A DNA stretch of 59,128 nt from a bacterium (GTDB lineage: Bacteria > Vulcanimicrobiota > Xenobia > Xenobiales > JADMJV01), in assembly GCA_030149525.1 (NCBI GenBank), contig JASBRJ010000238.1, positions 1-59,128 on the forward strand, read 5' to 3'. Below the pieces are notes generated by a model. It had not been told where the DNA came from and did no database searches. It saw nothing but the letters and a program-made list of their open reading frames with translations. Below are positions 39,821 to 40,505 of the stretch, piece after piece. The first letter of the stretch is position 1; the number at the start of each line of letters is the position of its first letter. The translations under genes were made by a program, and so were the position numbers.

Positions 39821-39859
39821 GCTCGAAATACTCAGGGTGCCGTTTCCCCCAGGGGAAAT
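39821..39859. repeat. Palindromic C/G-rich unit, copy 1
   Basis: GCTCGAAATAC (39821-39831) followed by a short spacer and TTTCCCCCAGGGGAAA (39843-39858), a 7-bp inverted repeat with 2-nt centre. A longer copy occurs at 40057-40115. Confidence 0.75.
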
Positions 39860-40056: not shown

Positions 40057-40115
40057 GCTCGAAATACATGAGGGCCAGTTTCCCCCAGTTTCCCCCAGGG
40101 GCCCCCAGGGGAAAT
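40057..40115. repeat. Palindromic C/G-rich unit, copy 2 (expanded)
   Basis: GCTCGAAATAC (40057-40067), then TTTCCCCCAG twice (40079-40098), then GGG and CCCCCAGGGGAAA (to 40114). It resembles copy 1 at 39821 with an internal duplication, which suggests slippage or unequal recombination within the palindrome. Confidence 0.75.
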
Positions 40116-40130
40116 GACTTGCTGTTGTTG

Positions 40131-40251
40131 GGGCGAGCTTCTTGGTGCCGAAAGACGGATGGCCTCGGCGAGCTTCGCTCTCCTCGGAGCACTACGGCTT
40201 CGCCTTCGTTTGCGCACCAGCAATCCAAAGGAACGTCGGCGGTTCGAATCC
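40131..40251. repeat. Displaced tRNA-Phe 3' fragment, partly inverted
   Basis: Positions 40131-40160 are identical to 40304-40333, covering the terminator arm, encoded CCA and 3' end of tRNA-Phe. Positions 40235-40251 are the exact reverse complement of 40330-40346 (T-arm of tRNA-Phe). If the segment 40157-40251 (ends GGAT and ATCC) is flipped, the two pieces join to a continuous 43-nt copy of 40304-40346. So this looks like a duplicated tRNA 3' half that later suffered inversion. It is non-functional as a tRNA. Confidence 0.8.
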
Positions 40252-40285
40252 TTGTTTGGGCGGTTGGGAAAGAGTGTTTGTGAAA

Positions 40286-40313
40286 TAAAAAAAGCTCGCT
40301 GTTGGGCGAGCTT
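40286..40313 (-). terminator. Rho-independent terminator of the tRNA transcript
   Basis: On the minus strand an 8-bp stem AAGCTCGC/GCGAGCTT (plus 40292-40299 and 40306-40313) is followed by a seven-T run. It begins directly after the encoded CCA of tRNA-Phe. Confidence 0.92.
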
Positions 40314-40315
40314 CT

Positions 40316-40391
40316 TGGTGCCGAAAGACGGATTCGAACCGCCGACTCAGCGATTTTCAGTCGCTTGCTCTACCAACTGAGCTATTTCGGC
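40316..40391 (-). tRNA. tRNA-Phe(GAA)
   Basis: A complete cloverleaf with an encoded CCA end (76 nt). The acceptor GCCGAAA pairs with TTTCGGC; the D-loop contains AGTTGGTAGA; the anticodon loop CTGAAAA has anticodon GAA; the T-loop is TTCGAAT. It is the second gene of a tRNA-Asp/tRNA-Phe transcript. A displaced copy of its 3' half lies ~170 nt downstream. Confidence 0.96.
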
Positions 40392-40428: not shown

Positions 40429-40505
40429 TGGCGGGAGCGACGGGATTTGAACCCGCGATCTCCTGCGTGACAGGCAGGCGCCCTGAACCGCTAGGCCACG
40501 CCCCC
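40429..40505 (-). tRNA. tRNA-Asp(GTC)
   Basis: 77 nt including encoded CCA. The acceptor GGGGGCG pairs with CGCTCCC (one G-U), discriminator G. The anticodon loop CTGTCAC carries GTC; the T-loop is TTCAAAT. It is the first gene of the tRNA transcript, about 40 nt after the predicted start site of a consensus promoter. Confidence 0.95.

Follow-up and report, generated by a model that had tools for sequence, protein, structure and literature searches.

A fragment of a tRNA gene lying beside the intact gene is the kind of trace that an integrative element may leave at its attachment site, and the tRNA-Phe locus considered here raises the question of whether its interrupted and partly inverted 3' copy is such a relic, the product of a recombinase, or a scar of some other origin. 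The window, the whole stretch of 59,128 nt that was analysed, is the entire contig C76 of a draft genome (8.27 Mb in 398 contigs, 97.3% complete, 4.5% contamination). The neighboring genes on it code for a Gfo/Idh/MocA oxidoreductase, TrpG-type and TrpE-type proteins, an RNA methyltransferase, PrmA and DnaJ, along with several products lacking a Pfam assignment. The feature is real and a preliminary description of it, as a duplicated and internally inverted tRNA-Phe 3' half left by integration, is correct in outline; the evidence does not establish its reading in terms of a recombinase and an att site.

A partial copy of tRNA-Phe and its terminator

ARAGORN places the intact parent gene, tRNA-Phe(GAA), at 40316-40391 on the minus strand, with a tRNA-Asp at 40429-40505 on the same strand. 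Reading of the sequence reveals an intrinsic terminator of tRNA-Phe (40287-40315, minus strand) with the stem GCTCGC..GCGAGC and a T run. A direct copy lies on the minus strand at 40131-40160, with 173 bp between the copies; it matches 40304-40333 at 30 of 30 positions, as previously described, and comprises the last 18 nt of the tRNA, CCA among them, and 12 nt of downstream sequence. The similarity continues with small gaps beyond those 12 nt and through the terminator, a decayed version of which overlaps the 30-nt copy (40117-40142, minus strand); this alignment beats all 2000 shuffles (score 14, the best shuffle reaching 11; p<=0.0005), indicating that the terminators of parent and copy are homologous. 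A further piece, from the T-arm, lies inverted at 40235-40251 on the plus strand as the exact reverse complement of 40330-40346 (17/17), again as first reported, and can be extended to 40261, that is from 17 to 27 nt, at 89% identity. In the sense of the tRNA (minus strand) the order is thus tRNA-Phe, terminator, reversed T-arm piece, spacer, reversed insert, ATCCGTCTTTCGGCACCA and decayed terminator.

We rejected a chance origin of these pieces, which had been named among the conditions that would overturn the original reading: the 17-mer GTCGGCGGTTCGAATCC matches the 8.27-Mb genome exactly at just two places, tRNA-Phe and the inverted piece. The duplication of the tRNA 3' half is upheld, and the locus combines an intact tRNA gene with a downstream, same-strand 3' fragment that reaches the tRNA 3' end. 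Searches of viral and plasmid collections recovered no match. A palindromic repeat, CCCCAGGGG, occurs in the window at 39842-39855 and 40078-40115 and is dispersed elsewhere in the genome too; as the identical sequence is so dispersed, the TTTCCCCCAGGGG repeats at 39842 and 40078 were rejected as integrase arm sites.

The putatively inverted segment and its hairpin insert

Flipping the 95-bp segment 40157-40251 restores, as had been claimed, a copy of 43 contiguous identical nucleotides, 31 from tRNA-Phe including CCA and 12 from the terminator region. The GGAT and ATCC ends previously assigned to this segment are both present, but they form part of longer ends, namely 14-bp imperfect inverted repeats (GCCGAAAGACGGAT / GCCCAAACAAGGAT) that match at 11 of 14 positions, the left one (GCCGAAAGACGGAT) spanning 40147-40160 and overlapping the segment end and the right one (ATCCTTGTTTGGGC) spanning 40248-40261; the perfect inverted match at the junction measures only 4 bp. 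The candidate possibility that the Phe unit is a structured RNA was rejected: as it stands the unit is not unusually foldable (fold z -0.69, against -2.43 when flipped), and based on these predicted folds a functional RNA is therefore unlikely.

The segment carries a hairpin-rich insert of about 52 nt (40161-40212, plus strand), GGCCTCGGCGAGCTTCGCTCTCCTCGGAGCACTACGGCTTCGCCTTCGTTTG, of the form GGCCTCG..CTCCTCGGAGCAC..TTCGTTTG, which is akin to inserts in the 3'-half copies of tRNA-Thr, tRNA-Met and other tRNAs. With their flanks these read GGT|GGCCTCGTCGCAAGCTCCTCGGAGCACCTTCGGCTTG|CGAGTCC in the first Thr copy, GGT|GTCCTCAGCGCTTCGCGCTTCCGGAGCACTTCGTTTG|CAAATCC in the second Met copy on contig C10 and AGT|GGCCTCGGAACGGGC.. 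on contig C220, while the Glu insert has a similar tail, GTCCTCACTTCG..CCTTG|CGAATCC. The Phe insert aligns with these relatives in one orientation (p 0.0005 for Thr, 0.001 for Met, 0.003 for C220 and 0.0085 for Glu), with no significant alignment to any of the four in the other. Some pairs without Phe do not reach significance by themselves (p 0.17 for C220 and Thr, 0.70 for Glu and Thr), and the placement of the C220 and Glu sequences in the family is therefore tentative. At the readable junctions the insert follows directly after T54 of the T-loop, in the tRNA direction, whereas the Phe insert runs against its adjacent 3' fragment, unlike its relatives at the other loci. Because the orientation of the insert was not used to arrive at the inversion and yet conflicts with the adjacent 3' fragment, it lends independent support to the inversion of 40157-40251 suggested by the sequence of this one assembly.

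Within this genome, decayed copies of tRNA 3' halves are the only places in which related inserts were found (two of Thr, Met at two loci and probably Glu). Pattern searches found none elsewhere in the genome, BLAST yielded a single weak match, in contig C268, and a sequence model recovered no other strong matches among the 150 of 3796 candidates that were scored; as this model was trained on the family's own members, the absence of other strong matches is its only informative outcome. Across 148 other genomes of the phylum the insert pattern has two matches, both in distant genera. REP-type and other small palindromic repeats (REPs are described in PMC3733652) likewise are short GC-rich hairpins recurring within one genome; however, they form many dispersed intergenic copies, whereas the present inserts are very few and confined to tRNA 3'-half copies, and a genome-wide REP family was rejected on account of that confinement. 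The changes that distinguish the Met hairpins AGCGCTTCGCGCT and GCCGCTTCGCGGC are paired, and could reflect template switching or selection on structure.

Tail copies and islands at other tRNA genes

Downstream copies of the 3' end accompany five of the 42 intact tRNAs of the genome (Phe, Thr-TGT, Ala-TGC, Glu-CTC and Pro-TGG, the last by its terminator only), a count that leaves out two further survey rows, a second Thr match and a Gly match overlapping its own gene; copies of the 5' end were found near none of the 42. Decayed 3' units also occur beyond the 3' fragments displaced from two tRNA-Met genes (from C10:41261 and C220:2255 onward). The Thr and Met C10 units are tandem, with a common spacer and terminator: at the Thr locus (L089, C93:4556-4930) two tandem decayed tRNA-Thr(TGT) 3'-half copies share these elements, the first bearing the T-loop hairpin insert. 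The Ala copies carry a different hairpin chain of about 100 nt, and downstream of tRNA-Glu(CTC) (L073, C371) a long, almost perfect foldback (fold z -8.7) divides the 3' copy. An opposite-strand 3' half of tRNA-Arg(ACG), with an integrase gene beside it, directly follows tRNA-Pro(TGG) and a second copy of the Pro terminator (L126, C182:6244-6802). Repeats that follow a tRNA gene and each carry its 3' end are also known from E. coli, where the 178-bp repeats of tyrT are associated with RtT RNA. In contrast to these, the Phe copy has decayed and contains both a hairpin insert and a micro-inversion, and the Rfam RtT covariance model (RF00391) gave no listed match at E<=1 at the Phe, Thr, Met, Glu or Ala loci, where no known RNA family was detected either.

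In the comparison with related genomes that the preliminary description had proposed, the tRNA-Phe loci of other genera lack such a copy, with the exception of tandem 3'-half repeats in genome G026 of the same phylum. There, the tRNA-Phe 3' half and a spacer are repeated in tandem as perfect 141-bp units (L025), which display no att-like pattern. In another genome of the phylum (G023, L040), a tRNA-Arg 3' end and the sequence downstream of it recur as an exact copy of 55 nt.

Three islands of the same genome served as controls. One extends over 18.2 kb from a tRNA-Met (C10:22923) to its displaced fragment (C10:41153), with an integrase at C10:39574; AACAGCCACC repeats lie near both ends of this island (L121, C10:22923-41204). 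The other two appear to join a tRNA-Met on C273 to a fragment at C220:2156 (integrase at C220:1498) and a tRNA-Trp at C56:20003 (integrase at C56:19323) to C374:3739, these cross-contig pairings (L130, L124, L131, L129) being suggested by identical 3' ends and common short direct repeats. The exact repeats of the islands reach 45-49 nt back from the CCA end and stop 0-6 nt after it (6, 0 and 1), their downstream similarity has p values of 0.0045 for Met C10 (including the six shared nucleotides), 0.20 and 0.12, and only one of the three terminator pairs shows significant similarity. In the Phe copy, identity runs for 12 exact nt past CCA into a homologous terminator instead of ending within a few nucleotides of the tRNA.

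Origin and significance of the arrangement

In light of these observations, we consider it somewhat probable that the locus arose by duplication of the tRNA 3' half and its terminator, that the copy has since decayed and bears a palindromic repeat associated with tRNA copies and a micro-inversion, and that it is now an inert scar. The 3' half would have been duplicated with its terminator, most likely locally and possibly via an old integration; the homology is plain, the mechanism conjectural. The decaying copy, whose insert is demonstrably related to the others, would then have gained the palindromic insert, and the segment of about 95 bp with T-arm and insert may finally have inverted between the imperfect 14-bp inverted repeats. 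We infer both this order of events and the route, replication template switching or recombination between short repeats, neither of which needs an invertase. Template switching is documented in the making and mending of hairpins (PMC8794818), and the likeness to such mutations (PMC8604942, PMC8794818) lies in an inversion between imperfect inverted repeats together with hairpin-keeping paired changes; however, the spacers documented to invert in this way in yeast measure only 2-5 bp (PMC8604942), far shorter than the Phe segment. This account draws on the restored 43-nt copy and the 17-mer exclusive to tRNA-Phe, the terminator homology, the inverted repeats at the segment ends, a contig devoid of integrase, the single orientation in which the insert aligns with its relatives, opposite to that of the adjacent 3' fragment, and the tandem arrangement and shared terminators of the Thr and Met C10 units, together with the tandem tRNA-Phe repeats of G026. 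Against it, after the flip the insert lies upstream of the whole T-arm rather than within the T-loop, its position in the Thr and Met copies, which calls for extra events, and the restriction of copies to 3' ends (five against none of 42 tRNAs) is predicted by site-specific integration and not by plain duplication.

Because of that 3' bias we retain, as a less likely reading, that the 3' fragment is the tRNA end once displaced by an integrative element, since deleted, whose leftovers then gained the insert and inversion. Published islands of the Islander type show the same bias, 3760 having a 3' fragment against 159 with a 5' fragment (PMC4383910), the genome holds two tRNA-Met islands and one tRNA-Trp island with integrases and displaced 3' fragments, and decayed units sit just past the attR fragments of two of them. 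The Phe locus resembles such islands in its intact tRNA gene followed by its own 3' fragment in the same orientation, yet differs in its interrupted and part-inverted copy, its terminator and the proximity of its copies, whose intervening interval (<200 bp) has no integrase gene. The Phage_integrase domain (PF00589) has no match on C76 as against 16 on other contigs. The att duplication first suggested thus fits the 3'-end-only copies but not these features, and since the Phe copy departs from the island pattern we rank local duplication above it. It is quite improbable that no inversion took place and that the inverted sequence arose separately, as a partial copy of the tRNA-Phe T-arm and acceptor (27 nt, 89%) adjoining the direct one: the match past the 17-mer, with 7 identities in 10 positions (chance 0.0035), favors this, but the pieces meet exactly, with GGAT/ATCC in common, a single event accounts for both fragments and the insert orientation, and the inverted-repeat ends are equally expected had they mediated an inversion. 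A live switch driven by a site-specific recombinase is hardly credible: a short segment between inverted ends adjoining a tRNA would suit it, but the 4 perfect bp at the junction, the lack of a tyrosine recombinase on C76 and of an obvious controlled gene oppose it. The recombinase earlier invoked for the inversion finds no evidence, a micro-inversion by template switching or short repeats being sufficient, and the arrangement is probably fixed and inert.

We also entertain, as a rather unlikely proposal, that a previously undescribed palindromic repeat enters the T-loop of tRNA 3'-half copies right after T54, always in one orientation, and leaves functional tRNA genes untouched, with the Phe locus being such a copy that was later inverted. 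The locus itself is mostly an ordinary scar, from which it follows that a tRNA 3'-end copy beside a tRNA gene is not necessarily an att site; the reach of identity past CCA, terminator homology and the presence of an integrase jointly help to tell a duplication from an island scar. The restriction of hairpin inserts to the T-loops of decayed tRNA tails is an unexplained and possibly new regularity, and whether it reflects a palindromic element preferring the T-loop or spread by recombination between decaying tRNA copies is a testable question.
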